A stretch of 64,000 bases of DNA, taken from assembly GCF_026651875.1 (NCBI RefSeq), contig NZ_CP104067.1:5260501-5324500 (forward strand). Reading direction: 5' to 3'. Shown here piece after piece: positions 32,856 to 59,299 of this stretch. The position numbers and the translations under genes were made by a program. The notes under the pieces were generated by a model that made no database searches, was not told the DNA's origin, and saw only the letters and a program-made list of their open reading frames with translations. Every line of letters starts with the position of its first letter. The stretch's first letter is position 1. The DNA is from Alicyclobacillus fastidiosus. Lineage in GTDB: Bacteria > Bacillota > Bacilli > Alicyclobacillales > Alicyclobacillaceae.

Positions 32856-33047
32856 GAAGAATCAGTGAAGAGTAAACTGGCGGATTGTCCATTTTTATGC
32901 GCCATCTCGATTTTAGACGCCGTTGTGGAACCTAATTGGTATTCCATTACATAATAAGACAAAGCTGTCTGAAATCATATGAAGCTCATGATGAATCTTT
33001 TGCGCAAAGCTTCTGTCTGGACAGTTCCAAATATAGGAGGATGATTG

Positions 33048-34772
33048 GTGAAAGCGGTCAAGGCCACAATAGCCAAGGCACTTCAGCCTGTTACAGGTTT
33101 AGATGAAGATACACTGGTTCAAATGCTCGAATATCCACCCAATCCAGAGTTAGGAGATCTCGCCCTCCCCTGCTTCAAACTGGCGAAGACGTTGCGTAAA
33201 AACCCCGCCGAAATCGCTCAAACGCTGGCCGACGTACTCGTTCAATCGCCGGCTGTCACAGCGGCGTCGCCTGCCGGTGGATTTCTCAACATCTCACTGG
33301 CGCGTCTGCCCTTTGCGACGGAGGTTGTGAATCTCGCCGCGGTGGATACGCACGCGCTGTTCTCGTCGGATCGAAATAAGGGACACAAGGCTGCCGTCGA
33401 TTACTCGTCGCCGAACATCGCCAAACCATTTGGCGTCGGGCACTTGCGCTCGACCATCATCGGGGAATCCATCGTCCGACTCATGCGCGAAGACGGTTAT
33501 GAAGTCGTTGGCATCAACCACCTTGGCGACTGGGGTACACAGTTTGGCAAGACCATTGCCGCCTACTTGAAGTGGGGCGACGAAGCGACTGTCCGCGCCG
33601 ACCCGGTGCGTGAACTATTCAAGTTGTACGTGAGGTTTCACGAGGAAGCCGAGCGAGATCCGGCACTCGAGGACGAGGGCCGCTATTGGTTCAAACAACT
33701 CGAGGATGGCAACCAACAGGCTGTTTCTCTTTGGCAATGGTTTATCGACGAGAGCCTGAAGGCGTTCAAAGAGACGTATGCCCTGCTCAACGTCTCGTTC
33801 GATCACTACCTCGGCGAGAGTTTCTACAACGACAAGATGGACGCCGTGGTCGAAGAACTCCTCGCAGACAAGCTGCTGGTCGAAGACGAAGGCGCAGAAG
33901 TGGTGGATTTGTCCGCGTACGACATGCCGCCGTGTATCATCAAGAAGTCAGACGGCACTTCTATCTACGCCACGCGCGACCTAGCTGCGGCAGAATACCG
34001 TCACGACAAGTTGGGCGCCGATACGCTCATCTACGTCGTGGGCGGCGAACAGAGACTGCACTTCCAACAACTATTCAAAGTCCTCGAATTGATGGGCAAA
34101 CCGTATGCCAGCCGCGCGCAACACGTCAGCTTCGGCATGATGAAGTTCAACGGGGCTCGCCTGTCCACCCGGCGAGGACACGTCGTGTACCTGGAGGATG
34201 TCTTGGCCAAGGCCATCGACGAGGCACAGAAGATCATCGAGGAGAAAAATCCAAACCTCGCTGACAAGGATGCCGTGGCGACGAGCGTCGGTGTCGGTGC
34301 GGTCGTGTTCAACGACCTAAAGACCTACCGCATTCACGACGTCGATTTCCGCTACGAAGACGTCCTGAACTTCGACGGCGAAACGGGCCCTTACGTACAA
34401 TACACGCACGCTCGCGCTTGCAGTGTCCTGCGCAAATCCAACGACGCAAAAGCAACCATGCGCCTTGATACCAGCGCGCAGGGCGACGACGAGGGCGAGA
34501 GCGCACTCAATGACAGCGAGTGGGCACTTGTTCTCCAACTGGCACAAGCAAATGAGGCACTCAACCGCGCCGTCGACGAATACGATCCGTCCGTGATGGC
34601 TCGCTACACCCTTCAATTGTGCCATGCGTTTAACCGGTTTTATCACCACAACCCCATCCTGCAGTCCGAATCCGCGCAGCGGACTCGTCGCCTCGCGATG
34701 ACGCTTGCCACCCGCAACGTGCTCGCGCGTGCGCTGTATCTCATCGGGATGGACGCACCAAAGGAAATGTGA
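33048..34772 (+). CDS. argS: arginine--tRNA ligase
   Basis: 574 residues. Class I synthetase with the N-terminal additional domain, HIGH-equivalent KPFGVGHLRSTIIGES, the catalytic core ending at LSTRRGHVV (KMSK region), and the anticodon-binding helical domain with CHAFNRFYHHNPIL. The start is GTG 33048, seven bases after TAGGAGG; a TTG three bases earlier is less well spaced. It is transcribed alone, divergent from the TPR gene. Confidence 0.96.
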   Translation: MKAVKATIAKALQPVTGLDEDTLVQMLEYPPNPELGDLALPCFKLAKTLRKNPAEIAQTLADVLVQSPAVTAASPAGGFLNISLARLPFATEVVNLAAVDTHALFSSDRNKGHKAAVDYSSPNIAKPFGVGHLRSTIIGESIVRLMREDGYEVVGINHLGDWGTQFGKTIAAYLKWGDEATVRADPVRELFKLYVRFHEEAERDPALEDEGRYWFKQLEDGNQQAVSLWQWFIDESLKAFKETYALLNVSFDHYLGESFYNDKMDAVVEELLADKLLVEDEGAEVVDLSAYDMPPCIIKKSDGTSIYATRDLAAAEYRHDKLGADTLIYVVGGEQRLHFQQLFKVLELMGKPYASRAQHVSFGMMKFNGARLSTRRGHVVYLEDVLAKAIDEAQKIIEEKNPNLADKDAVATSVGVGAVVFNDLKTYRIHDVDFRYEDVLNFDGETGPYVQYTHARACSVLRKSNDAKATMRLDTSAQGDDEGESALNDSEWALVLQLAQANEALNRAVDEYDPSVMARYTLQLCHAFNRFYHHNPILQSESAQRTRRLAMTLATRNVLARALYLIGMDAPKEM

Positions 34773-34918: not shown

Positions 34919-35988
34919 TTACGTATACGGCATAGGATTGACTGCGTGCCGTTTCGGCGGACTTCGTAGTGCAATGTGGCCCTGTGGCCTCGCCCATGTC
35001 TCCGGAATACCCTATCAGTTCACCTTTGCTCACCGTCTGCCCGCTTTGTGCCACGGTGAACGACCTCGTTCACGGGCTGCTCGGCCGCATGGCTGGAAAC
35101 GACCTGCGATTTGGTCACCGTCCCGTTTTCAAAGGTTTCTCGTACCGCATCTTCCTCGATCCCGTTTTGTCCTTGGGTGACAACTTCCTCGTCACCTTTG
35201 ACCAACGCGTCATCATCCACGTATGTCACGTGATAGGGCACCGAAACAGTCTTCGTCACCGTCGCTACAGTCTTCACCGTCAGCAGTGGCTGAAGGGTGA
35301 ACTGCCGTGTGTCATCGCTGCTTTCTAGCAGCATAGCGGCTGGTGAAGAAGAGCGCCCTGCGATATGGCCGCTGACTGGATGTAACAGAAGTTGCGTGGC
35401 ATCGTCTGCCTGTAGAATATTCTGGATTCCCACGTTCGCCGCCGCTATCGACACGTGCCCCATGAACTGTGAGGTCACGTGGGACGCCCCCTTCACTTTA
35501 GGCGCGAGCGCGTACATCACGTCGTGTAAGACCTTTTGCGCAGCAGGTCTCGACGTCGTGTAGACCAAGGGTTTGTCGTCTAACTGAATGGCGGCCGCCT
35601 GGATTGGAAACGATGCAGCTTGATGCCAATTGTAGGACAAAGGGATGCTCTCGTGAACAGAGGTCGTCTGGAAATGAATCCCGTATCCGTTCGCAATTCG
35701 TTCCATACCAAGGGTTACCGTCGATTGATTAGGTACCAGTCCCACATACCGCCCACTTTGGTACACCTGCAACCAGGAACTTGTATGTACCACCTGTGCC
35801 GCCACGAGAGTAGCTGTGCCGCCGAGAACCACGAGGGCGGCCGTCCCGGCAAAGAACATTCTGGAGCGCGATGGAGAGAGAGTTTTCGTGAGATTCGATG
35901 GACCGTCGAGAATTTGCTTCGCCTTTACTCCCTGGCGAGCGGTAGCAAGTGCGTCCTTGACGCCGTGCAGGGCCGCTTTCCATTTCAC
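34919..35988 (-). pseudogene. decayed G5-domain/M23 peptidase cell-wall hydrolase
   Basis: The open part (GTG 35988 to TGA 35020, 322 residues) starts after AGGAGG and has a membrane helix (MFFAGTAALVVLGGTATLVA), an N-terminal domain and a near-complete G5 domain ending NEVVHRGTK. Downstream, in another frame, the bases still encode the end of an M23 endopeptidase: SGQTVSKGELIGYSGDMGEA, then TGPH; after one base shift HYEVRRNGTQ; after another shift VNPMPYT and TAA (34919-34921). Zinc-ligand motif LHYEV lost one base (CAT-TG for CATCTG). The M23 core with the first HxxxD ligand is missing between RGTK and SGQ. So a catalytic deletion plus two single-base losses are visible. Sequencing error could explain the single-base shifts but not the missing core. 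Confidence 0.8.
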
Positions 35989-36117
35989 TACGCAGGCCTC
36001 CTATGTAAAGTGATGAGCCGATGAAACATGCTAAAGATGCCCAACAAGTCGTATTCGACAAATATCCCGAAAATCCTCGTCGGTAACAAGTCGTCCACCC
36101 GTTCCCCCGCTGAACTT

Positions 36118-36270: not shown

Positions 36271-37218
36271 CTACTTTTCTCCGTCGCTCTGCGCGGCAAT
36301 GGCCTCAGCGAGTTCCTCCGTGAACGATTTGGCCGCGTCGTAGCCCATTCCTTTGAGGCGGAAGTTCATAGCGGCCACTTCGACGATGACCGCAAGGTTT
36401 CGCCCAGGTCGGACCGGGACCGTGACGAGTGGCACCTCGAGATCGAGAATTTTCATCGTGTGCTGTTCAATGCCCAAGCGATCGTACGCCACATTTTCAC
36501 GCCATGCTTCGAGGTGAATGACCATGGCGATTTTCTTGTGCGTGCGAACGGCACCGGCACCGAACAGCGTCATCGCGTTGAGGACGCCAAGCCCGCGAAT
36601 TTCAAGTAAGTGCTGCAGCAACGGAGGTGCAGTGCCGACGAGACTTTCGTCTGAAATTTGACGGATGACCACCGCATCGTCCGCGACCAAGCGGTGCCCG
36701 CGCTTAATCAATTCCAGTCCCGTCTCGCTCTTTCCAATGCCGCTAGAGCCGGTAATCAGAATGCCGATGCCATACACGTCGACCAAAACGCCGTGGACTA
36801 GCGTCTCAGGGGCGAGGCGCTCTTCCAGGTACGTGGAGAGCGTCGCCGTGAGACGGGTAGTCACCATGTTGGTCCCGAGGACGGGAATCCGCTTTGCCGT
36901 AGCCTCCCGCAACAGAACGGACGGCGGTGCATCGCCGCGGGTGACGAGAATGCACGGCGTTTGTTGATACGAGCAAAATGCAAACACGCGCAGTGCCTGC
37001 TCTCGCTCGTTCATGCCACGTAGGAAAGACAATTCTGTGCGGCCGAGGACCTGGACGCGTTCCGCCGGGTGATACCGAAGGTACCCGGCCAACGCCAGCC
37101 CAGGTCGGTTGATATCCAGAGTTTGAATCACCCTGTCGAGGTCAGAGTCCTCGTTGAAGACATGTAGGTCCAAATCTTTCACTAACTGGCGAACACTCAC
37201 GCCGCGATCCTCAGTCAC
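36271..37218 (-). CDS. hprK: HPr kinase/phosphorylase
   Basis: 315 residues. Phosphorylates Ser46 of HPr/Crh in response to glycolytic intermediates. P-loop GSSGIGKSETGLELI and signature LEIRGLGVLNAMTLFGAGAV are both complete; the N-terminal domain starts SVRQLVKDLDLHV. GTG 37218 has AGGTGGGG upstream. Its Crh substrate is encoded at 26790-27053; hprK-uvrA-uvrB order resembles Bacillus. No lgt gene follows within the window. Confidence 0.96.
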   Translation of the reverse strand: MTEDRGVSVRQLVKDLDLHVFNEDSDLDRVIQTLDINRPGLALAGYLRYHPAERVQVLGRTELSFLRGMNEREQALRVFAFCSYQQTPCILVTRGDAPPSVLLREATAKRIPVLGTNMVTTRLTATLSTYLEERLAPETLVHGVLVDVYGIGILITGSSGIGKSETGLELIKRGHRLVADDAVVIRQISDESLVGTAPPLLQHLLEIRGLGVLNAMTLFGAGAVRTHKKIAMVIHLEAWRENVAYDRLGIEQHTMKILDLEVPLVTVPVRPGRNLAVIVEVAAMNFRLKGMGYDAAKSFTEELAEAIAAQSDGEK

Positions 37219-37277
37219 ACCGCACCCCACCTAATCGATTCACACAAGTGGGACAAGAATGACCACTCGTGAACATC

Positions 37278-47086: not shown

Positions 47087-47217
47087 TGTGCAATCAAACT
47101 CCTCTACTCGAATGTTTCGGTGTCGAGCGATATTCCGCCCAGTAACGAGAAACGCCGAATTTGGGTCCAGCGGAATGATTCGACGTCATTCGGCAAAATT
47201 CCTGTTGTGAATATCTC

Positions 47218-52032: not shown

Positions 52033-52149
52033 GCCTGGCAACGACCTACTTTCCCAGCCCCTCTCGGGACAAGTATCCTCGGCGCTGGAGGTCTTCACGT
52101 CCGTGTTCGGTATGGGTACGGGTGTTTCCCCTCCGCTATGGTCACCAGA
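52033..52149 (-). rRNA. rrf: 5S ribosomal RNA
   Basis: Minus strand carries CTGGTGACCATAGCGG at the 5' side, the universal CCCATACCGAACACGG and the closing GTAGGTCGTTGCCAG. About 117 bases; ends are estimated by stem pairing. Confidence 0.93.
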
Positions 52150-52305
52150 CCGCTTGGCGTTCAGGTATTCGTTCGCACGGCTTCGGCCTATCGGCCTGCA
52201 GATGTGCTACTCACACCTTCACTCAAGCTTCCAGTTACGTCGCTCCGTAACTTTGTCTTTATCCTCGCTCCTGAATCATGGAACAACCTCTTCTTCTGTT
52301 CATCG

Positions 52306-55247
<2,942 letters not shown>

Positions 55248-55448
55248 GTTTTGACTTCCTAACCACAAACGTGATTATTCCATCTATAAATCCGGTTACG
55301 TTAACCTGTTACGCATTTACGGTTACCGGTTTTACTTATTCGAGGTTGTTCCATATTCAGTTGCCAAGGTACCTTGAGTTTACCTAGCCACAAGGGCTTT
55401 GGCTCCCTCAAAACTAAACACCCACGTCCTAAAAGCCTTGTTTCTCCG

Positions 55449-56985
<1,537 letters not shown>

Positions 56986-57103
56986 TACTGGCGTTACTTC
57001 ATAAATGTCTCGACGACGACTGTCGTCTCGACCGAAACTTTTAGGCGTGTGTGTTTAGTTTTCAAGGAACCAAATCAATCAGTGCCGCCGAAGCAGCTCA
57101 GAC

Positions 57104-57133
57104 AATATACCACGAATCTATCTTCGCTGTCTA
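57104..57133 (-). promoter_or_regulatory. rRNA operon promoter, proximal
   Basis: TAGACA (57128-57133), 18-base spacer and TATATT (57104-57109) on the minus strand, followed within 10 bases by GCTTCGGCGGCACTG, the same element that follows the distal -10 box. Between here and the 16S lies a leader with TTGAAAACTAAACA. Confidence 0.55.
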
Positions 57134-57244
57134 CTGGAACATTTTGCTTCAACTCGGTCGAACGTTACGGTTCGAAGCTGTGAGCCAATCAACCAGCGAC
57201 TTGGTATATCCTGTTTGTTCAGCAGTGCCGCCGAAGCGACAGGG

Positions 57245-57277
57245 AGTATACTATCATGCAATCATTCTATTCGTCAA
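57245..57277 (-). promoter_or_regulatory. rRNA operon promoter, distal
   Basis: TATACT (57245-57250) on the minus strand with TTGACG at 57272-57277; the 21-base gap is long, so the -35 may be different. Followed by CCCTGTC and then GCTTCGGCGGCACTG, repeated at the proximal promoter. Confidence 0.4.
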
Positions 57278-57492
57278 TCACCAGATTTACATGAGACGTA
57301 AGAGATTCACGATTGATTGGTCATCCCGAGCAACGAAACATCAAACCGCAAGGAGGATCCATGCGACGGTAAAAACAAACCGCAGATGTGCATCGGGCAG
57401 CGAATACGCGTGTATATATGAAGCAAAATATCAACACCTCCTTGGCAAACGGAGAAATTCGTCGGTTACACACGTTTTTTGAAATATACTGC

Positions 57493-57521
57493 TTGACTTG
57501 AGTCTGTGCCCGTGTTAAATT
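57493..57521 (+). promoter_or_regulatory. promoter of the tRNA array
   Basis: TTGACT (57493-57498), exactly 17 bases, then TAAATT (57516-57521), ending 33 bases before the first tRNA gene. Confidence 0.7.
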
Positions 57522-57554
57522 GGCTACTGCCTAATTCAAGCGGGCAAATCACAT

Positions 57555-57630
57555 GAGCCATTAGCTCAGTTGGTAGAGCACCTGACTTTTAATCAGGGTG
57601 TCGCTGGTTCGAGTCCAGCATGGCTCACCA
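57555..57630 (+). tRNA. tRNA-Lys (anticodon TTT)
   Basis: 76 bases with encoded CCA. Acceptor GAGCCAT/ATGGCTC; anticodon loop CTTTTAA; TTCGAGT in the T arm. First gene of the array. Confidence 0.96.
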
Positions 57631-57644
57631 TTTATATGCTATAT

Positions 57645-57719
57645 GCCACCTTGGCTCAGGGGTAGAGCGGCTCACTCGTAATGAGCAGGTCGTCGGTTCA
57701 AATCCGACAGGTGGCTCCA
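57645..57719 (+). tRNA. tRNA-Thr (anticodon CGT)
   Basis: Acceptor GCCACCT/AGGTGGC, anticodon loop CTCGTAA, CCA encoded. One of three threonine tRNAs here. Confidence 0.95.
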
Positions 57720-57720
57720 T

Positions 57721-57796
<76 letters not shown>

Positions 57797-57828
57797 TCAG
57801 TGATTTACATATCGTAAATCACAAACAT

Positions 57829-57904
57829 AGGGGCGTAGTTCAGCTGGTAGAACGGCGGTCTCCAAAACCGCATGTCGTGGGTTCAAGTCCTGCCGCCCCT
57901 GCCA
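57829..57904 (+). tRNA. tRNA-Trp (anticodon CCA)
   Basis: Acceptor AGGGGCG/CGCCCCT, anticodon loop CTCCAAA, CCA encoded. Preceded by a TTTAC-ATATC-GTAAA hairpin in the spacer. Confidence 0.95.
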
Positions 57905-57915
57905 TGTTTTGAAGT

Positions 57916-57990
57916 TGGGGAATAGCCAAGCGGTAAGGCAACGGTTTTTGGTACCGTCACGCGAAGGTTCGAATCCTTCTTCCCCAGCCA
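57916..57990 (+). tRNA. tRNA-Gln (anticodon TTG)
   Basis: Acceptor TGGGGAA/TTCCCCA, anticodon loop TTTTGGT, CCA encoded. Confidence 0.95.
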
Positions 57991-57992
57991 GT

Positions 57993-58069
57993 GTGCCCTT
58001 AGCTCAGCTGGATAGAGCGTTTGACTACGAATCAAAAGGTCGGGAGTTCGAATCTCTCAGGGCACGCCA
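57993..58069 (+). tRNA. tRNA-Arg (anticodon ACG)
   Basis: Acceptor GTGCCCT/AGGGCAC, anticodon loop CTACGAA, CCA encoded. A34 is expected to be edited to inosine by TadA. Confidence 0.95.
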
Positions 58070-58075
58070 GTTTGA

Positions 58076-58152
58076 CGGAGCATAGCGCAGCTTGGTAGCG
58101 CGCCTGCCTTGGGAGCAGGAGGTCGTGGGTTCGAATCCCGCTGCTCCGACCA
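58076..58152 (+). tRNA. tRNA-Pro (anticodon TGG)
   Basis: Acceptor CGGAGCA/TGCTCCG, anticodon loop CTTGGGA, CCA encoded. Confidence 0.95.
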
Positions 58153-58181
58153 GTGCAATTCAAAATTGCATGCATCACCCT

Positions 58182-58264
58182 CCCGGAGTGGCGGAATTGG
58201 CAGACGCACACGACTCAAAATCGTGCGGGAAACCGTGCCGGTTCGAGTCCGGCCTCCGGGACCA
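58182..58264 (+). tRNA. tRNA-Leu (anticodon CAA)
   Basis: Acceptor CCCGGAG/CTCCGGG, anticodon loop CTCAAAA, extended variable arm (class II), CCA encoded. Confidence 0.94.
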
Positions 58265-58267
58265 TGT

Positions 58268-58343
58268 GGGGGTATAGCTCAGCTGGGAGAGCACCTGCCT
58301 TGCAAGCAGGGGGTCGTCGGTTCGAATCCGTCTACCTCCACCA
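58268..58343 (+). tRNA. tRNA-Ala (anticodon TGC)
   Basis: Acceptor GGGGGTA/TACCTCC with one G-U pair, anticodon loop CTTGCAA, CCA encoded. Confidence 0.95.
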
Positions 58344-58346
58344 CAT

Positions 58347-58421
58347 TCCTCGATAGCTCAGCGGTAGAGCATCCGACTGTTAATCGGAGGGTCGTAGGTT
58401 CGAATCCTACTCGGGGAGCCA
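58347..58421 (+). tRNA. tRNA-Asn (anticodon GTT)
   Basis: Acceptor TCCTCGA/TCGGGGA, anticodon loop CTGTTAA, CCA encoded. Confidence 0.95.
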
Positions 58422-58426
58422 ATTTT

Positions 58427-58502
58427 GCTCCCATAGCTCAGTTGGCAGAGCGCATCCATGGTAAGGATGAGGTCACCAGTTCAAGCCTGGTTGGGAGCTC
58501 CA
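58427..58502 (+). tRNA. tRNA-Thr (anticodon GGT)
   Basis: Acceptor GCTCCCA/TGGGAGC, anticodon loop ATGGTAA, CCA encoded; third threonine isoacceptor. Confidence 0.94.
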
Positions 58503-58507
58503 GTCAT

Positions 58508-58582
58508 GGCCCCATGGTCAAGCGGTTAAGACACCGCCCTTTCACGGCGGTAACGCGGGTTCGAATCCCGCTGGGGTCACCA
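58508..58582 (+). tRNA. tRNA-Glu (anticodon TTC)
   Basis: Acceptor GGCCCCA/TGGGGTC, anticodon loop CTTTCAC, CCA encoded. Confidence 0.95.
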
Positions 58583-58654
58583 TTGTTGAGAAGGAAAGAA
58601 CTTCCCTCTTGACAGAGTAGTAGGCTAGCATGTACGATATTTATCGTATCTCTT

Positions 58655-58729
58655 GCGGAAGTGGCTCAGGGGTAGAGCATCGCCTTGCCAAGGCGAGGGT
58701 CGCGGGTTCGAATCCCGTCTTCCGCTCCA
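58655..58729 (+). tRNA. tRNA-Gly (anticodon GCC)
   Basis: Acceptor GCGGAAG/CTTCCGC, anticodon loop TTGCCAA, CCA encoded. The 72-base gap before it has a small ACGATA-TATCGT inverted repeat. Confidence 0.95.
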
Positions 58730-58763
58730 TGTTTCGGAGGATCGAATGGTCCTTCGAAAATGT

Positions 58764-58837
58764 GCGGGTGTAGTTTAATGGTAGAACGTCAGCTTCCCAA
58801 GCTGAGAGCGAGGGTTCGATTCCCTTCACCCGCTCCA
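58764..58837 (+). tRNA. tRNA-Gly (anticodon TCC)
   Basis: Acceptor GCGGGTG/CACCCGC, anticodon loop TTCCCAA, CCA encoded. Confidence 0.95.
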
Positions 58838-58845
58838 ATGCACTT

Positions 58846-58920
58846 GCGACTGTAGCTCAGGGGGAGAGCACCACCTTGACACGGTGGGGGTCACAGGTTC
58901 AATTCCTGTCAGTCGCACCA
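58846..58920 (+). tRNA. tRNA-Val (anticodon GAC)
   Basis: Acceptor GCGACTG/CAGTCGC, anticodon loop TTGACAC, CCA encoded. Confidence 0.95.
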
Positions 58921-58962
58921 TCTGCGTACGGCGCGTCGAGCTTTTGACCGCTTAACGCGTCA

Positions 58963-59037
58963 GGCCCTATCGTCTAATGGTTAGGACGCCGCCCTCTCAC
59001 GGCGGTAATAGGGATTCGAATCCCCTTAGGGTCACCA
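58963..59037 (+). tRNA. tRNA-Glu (anticodon CTC)
   Basis: Acceptor GGCCCTA/TAGGGTC, anticodon loop CTCTCAC, CCA encoded. Closely similar to the Glu-TTC gene of the same array. Confidence 0.94.
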
Positions 59038-59042
59038 TCTAT

Positions 59043-59136
59043 GGAGTGATGGCCGAGTAGGTCGAAGGCGCTCGCCTGCTAAGCGAGTATACGTCTTAAA
59101 AACGTATCGAGGGTTCGAATCCCTCTCACTCCGCCA
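59043..59136 (+). tRNA. tRNA-Ser (anticodon GCT)
   Basis: Acceptor GGAGTGA/TCACTCC, anticodon loop CTGCTAA, long variable arm (TACG-TCTTAAAAA-CGTA), CCA encoded. Confidence 0.95.
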
Positions 59137-59139
59137 CAT

Positions 59140-59216
59140 GGAACTGTGGTGTAGAGGCCTAACATGCCTGCCTGTCACGCAGGAGACCGCGGGTTCGAAT
59201 CCCGTCAGTTCCGCCA
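59140..59216 (+). tRNA. tRNA-Asp (anticodon GTC)
   Basis: Acceptor GGAACTG/CAGTTCC, anticodon loop CTGTCAC, CCA encoded. Confidence 0.95.
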
Positions 59217-59222
59217 ATATGT

Positions 59223-59299
59223 GGGCCCATAGCTCAGCTGGCTAGAGCGCACGACTGATAATCGTGAGGTCGGTGGTTCGAGTCCACCTGGGCCCACCA
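59223..59299 (+). tRNA. tRNA-Ile (anticodon GAT)
   Basis: Acceptor GGGCCCA/TGGGCCC, anticodon loop CTGATAA, CCA encoded. Last gene of the array. Confidence 0.95.

Follow-up and report, generated by a model that had tools for sequence, protein, structure and literature searches.

The locus between hprK and argS

We analysed a stretch of 64,000 nucleotides of the Alicyclobacillus fastidiosus genome (hereafter the window; the genome, G000, is 6.0 Mb, and the window lies on its main chromosome contig of 5.7 Mb). The gene order in one part of the window is uvrB-uvrA-hprK-[gene]-argS, and the same order is found in three genomes of the same genus, G004, G012 and G001. The bracketed gene is a minus-strand reading frame with the following features and neighbours.

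33045..34772, plus strand: argS, intact flank, 95% identical to G004 (comparison with G004)
35020..35988, minus strand: truncated open reading frame of 322 codons (ORF call and translation)
35044..35265, minus strand: G5 domain, residues 242-315, profile positions 2-75 of 75 (Pfam and structure model)
35791..35859, minus strand: predicted membrane helix, residues ~44-66, MFFAGTAALVVLGGTATLVAAQV (from the sequence)
36271..37230, minus strand: hprK, intact flank, 98% identical to G004 (comparison with G004)

The frame opens with a GTG at 35988 and closes at 35020 with the C-terminal sequence NEVVHRGTKRADGEQR and a stop. From N to C terminus it comprises a membrane helix, an extracellular module, a full G5 domain and seven further residues. 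Pfam recognises the G5 domain over its full length (PF07501, E = 1.7e-17, 63.9 bits, above the cut-off), and it is modelled at a pLDDT of ~72-91; the model of the N-terminal module is of low confidence (mean pLDDT 51). A sequence-only reading of this DNA had the frame stopping directly after the G5 domain. That domain is indeed complete, and the refinement needed is that seven residues, translated in the wrong frame, stand between it and the stop. Pfam finds no M23 peptidase domain within the reading frame, and the sole PF01551 match at the locus is a 27-position fragment that scores 22.3 bits against a cut-off of 28.7.

Elsewhere in the window (52033-59296), a minus-strand rRNA operon faces 19 clustered tRNA genes on the plus strand.

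Comparison with intact orthologues

At the same hprK-argS site, G004, G012 and G001 each carry a G5-M23 gene of ~445 codons, with 80%, 57% and 47% identity, respectively, over the part shared with the window copy; both G5 and M23 are found by Pfam in the intact orthologue. Alignment with the G5-M23 proteins of close relatives, the check that the sequence-only reading had proposed, leaves these ~445-residue orthologues intact and the window copy gapped. Base by base against G004, 266 bp are absent, corresponding to G004 coding positions 938-1203 and not a multiple of three. Compared with an intact orthologue at the same site, the window copy is thus disrupted, one of the marks of a pseudogene, and the proposal of a broken G5/M23 gene without its catalytic core is upheld. 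The loss is wider than the first zinc ligand that had been reported missing with the core: it takes HPGVD, whose His and Asp are two of the three zinc ligands, as well as the histidine of GHMS. Two further 1-bp deletions lie 3' of the gap, the first within the HxH motif and the second ahead of the terminal VNPMPYT, and the ancestral stop codon is retained despite all three lesions. As had been claimed, the tail of the M23 domain can be read in three successive frames.

34919..34942, minus strand: M23 remnant 3, VNPMPYT plus the original stop, past the second 1-bp deletion
34945..34971, minus strand: M23 remnant 2, HYEVRRNGT, past the 1-bp deletion within the HxH motif
34974..35045, minus strand: M23 remnant 1, SGQTVSKGELIGYSGDMGEATGPH, in a frame other than that of the ORF (alignment to G004)
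35045..35055, minus strand: deletion junction, CGTGGCACAAA, with 266 bp missing (alignment to G004)

With the intact orthologue as a tblastn query, the remnants match at E = 2.8e-12 (87% identity over 31 residues, then 100% over 10), and so are not a chance resemblance. The Hx(3)D zinc motif of M23, present in the orthologues, is absent from the window copy with the deletion of HPGVD; the HxH motif is interrupted by the loss of one base and is not in the frame of the ORF. Recoding or programmed frameshifting is excluded, since 266 bp of coding sequence are missing. At the junction, CGTGGCACAAA (35055-35045) fits both the left end of the deletion (read as R-G-T-N) and the right end (V-A-Q-S, in the other frame), given silent third-position differences from G004. 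It is plausible from this fit that the ancestor carried an 11-bp direct repeat here.

No second copy of the lost core or of the G5-M23 architecture is found elsewhere in the genome. The genome's other M23 proteins number three: one is SpoIIQ-like, one has 355 residues and no G5, and one, of 302 residues, is degenerate. Its other G5 proteins comprise a YabE-like G5-3D protein (C1:2662897) and two VanW-like proteins, with the YabE and VanW labels judged by eye. Because the genome encodes no other G5-M23 protein, the broken copy was the sole one. In searches of GTDB contigs, a single protein as query retrieved zero relatives and an alignment retrieved four Alicyclobacillus loci. A plasmid relative was searched for and not found, and a literature search turned up nothing on this gene in Alicyclobacillus.

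Age of the break and selection

Twenty-four codons of the tail that can be compared in frame with G004 hold nine silent differences and one amino-acid-changing difference. This ratio indicates that the peptidase was constrained for nearly the whole time since the G000/G004 split, and hence that the deletion is recent. A codon model on four taxa, applied to the N-terminal and G5 part, gives an omega of 0.32 on the G000 branch versus 0.16 elsewhere, a difference that is not significant (2 delta lnL 3.2); for the N-terminal part there is weak evidence against an omega of 1 over the full length of the G000 branch (2 delta lnL 5.2). The four-taxon hint of relaxed selection on the G000 branch is gone once flanking-gene controls are applied: lineage-specific amino-acid changes stand at 22:14 (G000:G004) versus 34:27 in six flanking genes (Fisher p = 0.67), and with these genes as the control there is no excess of amino-acid change on the G000 branch. 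The selection data fit both a fresh pseudogene and a short protein still under selection.

Presence and loss across Alicyclobacillaceae

The gene is present in 21 of 41 Alicyclobacillaceae genomes (including G055, where hprK is on another contig and which we counted as gene-bearing). In all 20 genomes that do not carry it, hprK adjoins argS, the two matches lying 44-299 bp from each other. One of these is G007, which has no copy though it shares an identical hprK protein with the gene-bearing G012. A tree of hprK, a single gene, calls for nine gains or losses, and for seven of these the well supported branches leave no alternative. Wherever the gene is present it occupies one and the same site, which makes a single origin followed by many losses more likely than repeated insertion.

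Two other copies are broken, in ways that may be draft errors: in G045 (L081, L106) a stop falls inside M23 just upstream of the first zinc ligand, and in G046 (L080, L100) the frame breaks ahead of G5. These two are sister genomes, each differently broken, and G017, the third of their genus, is without the gene. The gene is dispensable in Alicyclobacillaceae, where losses and breaks have recurred.

Two observations concern hprK itself. In G009 (G009:C1:551658-552598; L056, L060) it appears to be split over two frames, perhaps through a sequencing error. A second hprK-like gene, ~40% identical, is found in the window genome (G000:C1:2218056-2218949; L058) and likewise in G004, G012, G021, G022, G042 and G056.

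Expression signals

The N-terminal half of the window copy keeps its start, its membrane helix and its ribosome site, as the sequence-only reading had said, and the start and ribosome site are found in G004 too. Upstream of the start lie the following.

35997..36002, minus strand: ribosome site AGGAGG, 8 bases upstream of the GTG, kept in G004 and G012
36053..36077, minus strand: sigma-H-like promoter box AGGATTT-N11-GTCGAAT, 25 bp, 64 bp upstream of the start codon
36118..36151, no strand assigned: GC-rich hairpin with a 13-bp stem and no T-tract, between hprK and the gene; a similar hairpin occurs in G004

The sigma-H consensus has been given as RNAGGAWWW at -35 and RNNGAATWW at -10 (quoted in PMC8510167). 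Against it, CGAGGATTT-N11-GTCGAATAC agrees at 13 of 15 specified positions, enough to count as sigma-H-like. The box is identical in G004, where it sits inside ~32 bases of unbroken identity in an otherwise diverged region; of the 18 orthologues linked to hprK, 12 have it at equal spacing, and there is none at the gene-less hprK-argS sites. A strict form of the pattern occurs 10 times in G000 versus twice for a reversed control. Weaker matches with the same spacing lie at spo0A (12/14) and spoVG (11/14), where ~0.005-0.014 would be expected per 300 bp, and the upstream region of spoVS in G000 has no sigma-H-like box. A sigma-70 promoter scan gave nothing useful, and we found no earlier description of the conserved box. 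Judging by these matches, the gene probably belongs to the sigma-H genes active at the onset of sporulation, with a promoter that would still be intact in the window copy.

One of the ten strict occurrences precedes ftsE. A like box with a spacing of 12 lies in the window at 47178-47203, 91 bp upstream of ftsE (minus strand); if true, it would place ftsEX under sigma-H in this organism. Two near-identical sigma-H-like boxes, AGGATNGTGACGAATTTTGTCGAAT, at G000:C1:590653 and 1777708 (L129, L130), have no evident gene directly downstream.

Relation to known G5 and M23 proteins

The window copy shares its site, N-terminal module, G5 domain, promoter-like box, tail sequence and stop with the G004 orthologue, from which it differs by the 266 bp missing from its catalytic domain and by two more frame breaks. 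In LysM-G5-M23 hydrolases the G5 domain directly precedes M23 (PMC9662197), and the intact orthologues likewise place G5 immediately ahead of M23. Unlike those hydrolases, the hprK-argS family has a family-specific module in place of LysM, which we recognised nowhere in the family, and the window copy is without M23. The window product is expected to have no peptidase activity, and in this it would resemble the degenerate M23 proteins EnvC and NlpD. Those proteins have kept the M23 fold and lost only its catalytic residues (PMC9662197), whereas in the window copy the fold itself is deleted. YabE/RpfB-type proteins also carry G5 in a cell-wall protein, combined there with an Sps/3D or Rpf domain (PMC1084345); the window family has other N- and C-terminal domains and is not orthologous to them.

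A probable young pseudogene and its alternatives

We conclude that the reading frame is very probably a recently inactivated copy of a gene for a family-specific, membrane-anchored G5-M23 peptidoglycan peptidase, that is, a young pseudogene. One 266-bp deletion, which probably arose during replication between short direct repeats, would have taken out the first zinc motif together with the active-site core and put the remainder out of frame, and the two 1-bp deletions would have accumulated later in the tail, by then untranslated. With promoter, ribosome site, membrane helix and G5 domain intact, a truncated, noncatalytic, membrane-bound G5 protein may still be made; most likely it is on its way to loss. 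On the evidence of these lesions the window copy would have lost its function, and the dispensability of the gene in Alicyclobacillaceae explains why such a loss is tolerated.

An alternative is that the truncated product has been retained and binds the wall or partner proteins at the onset of sporulation without cutting, in which case the locus has undergone domain loss and not gene death. The complete, confidently modelled G5 domain speaks for this, as do the unaltered start, ribosome site and promoter-like box, the N-terminal part without excess amino-acid changes, and the independent loss of M23 in G045, where the same membrane-plus-G5 layout results. However, the deletion is young enough that constraint predating it yields the same counts of changes. 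The break ahead of G5 in G046 and the absence of the gene from G007 and 19 other genomes indicate that the G5 part is dispensable as well, and two truncations past G5 could be coincidence. We therefore regard retention as unlikely. A broader form of the idea, in which loss of M23 is repeated and useful, such that in at least two lineages (G000 and G045) a sigma-H-controlled hydrolase became a non-cutting, membrane-bound G5 protein still acting at the start of sporulation, strikes us as quite improbable. The idea that the break is a sequencing or assembly error draws on genome quality statistics that give 9.4% contamination, and it is scarcely credible given three separate lesions within 150 bp of one gene, among them a clean 266-bp loss and none in a long homopolymer, on a 5.7-Mb main chromosome contig where the flanking genes in the window are all intact and 94-99% identical to G004.

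As a single event, the young pseudogene is an ordinary one, and its broader value is modest. Annotation pipelines would label the reading frame merely as a 'G5 domain protein'. For the family, the locus presents a cell-wall peptidase gene, probably acting at the onset of sporulation, that is dispensable for a family of spore-formers and has been lost several times from one fixed site. This repeated loss lets the locus serve, on a small scale, as a natural experiment on how redundant sporulation-time hydrolases are.
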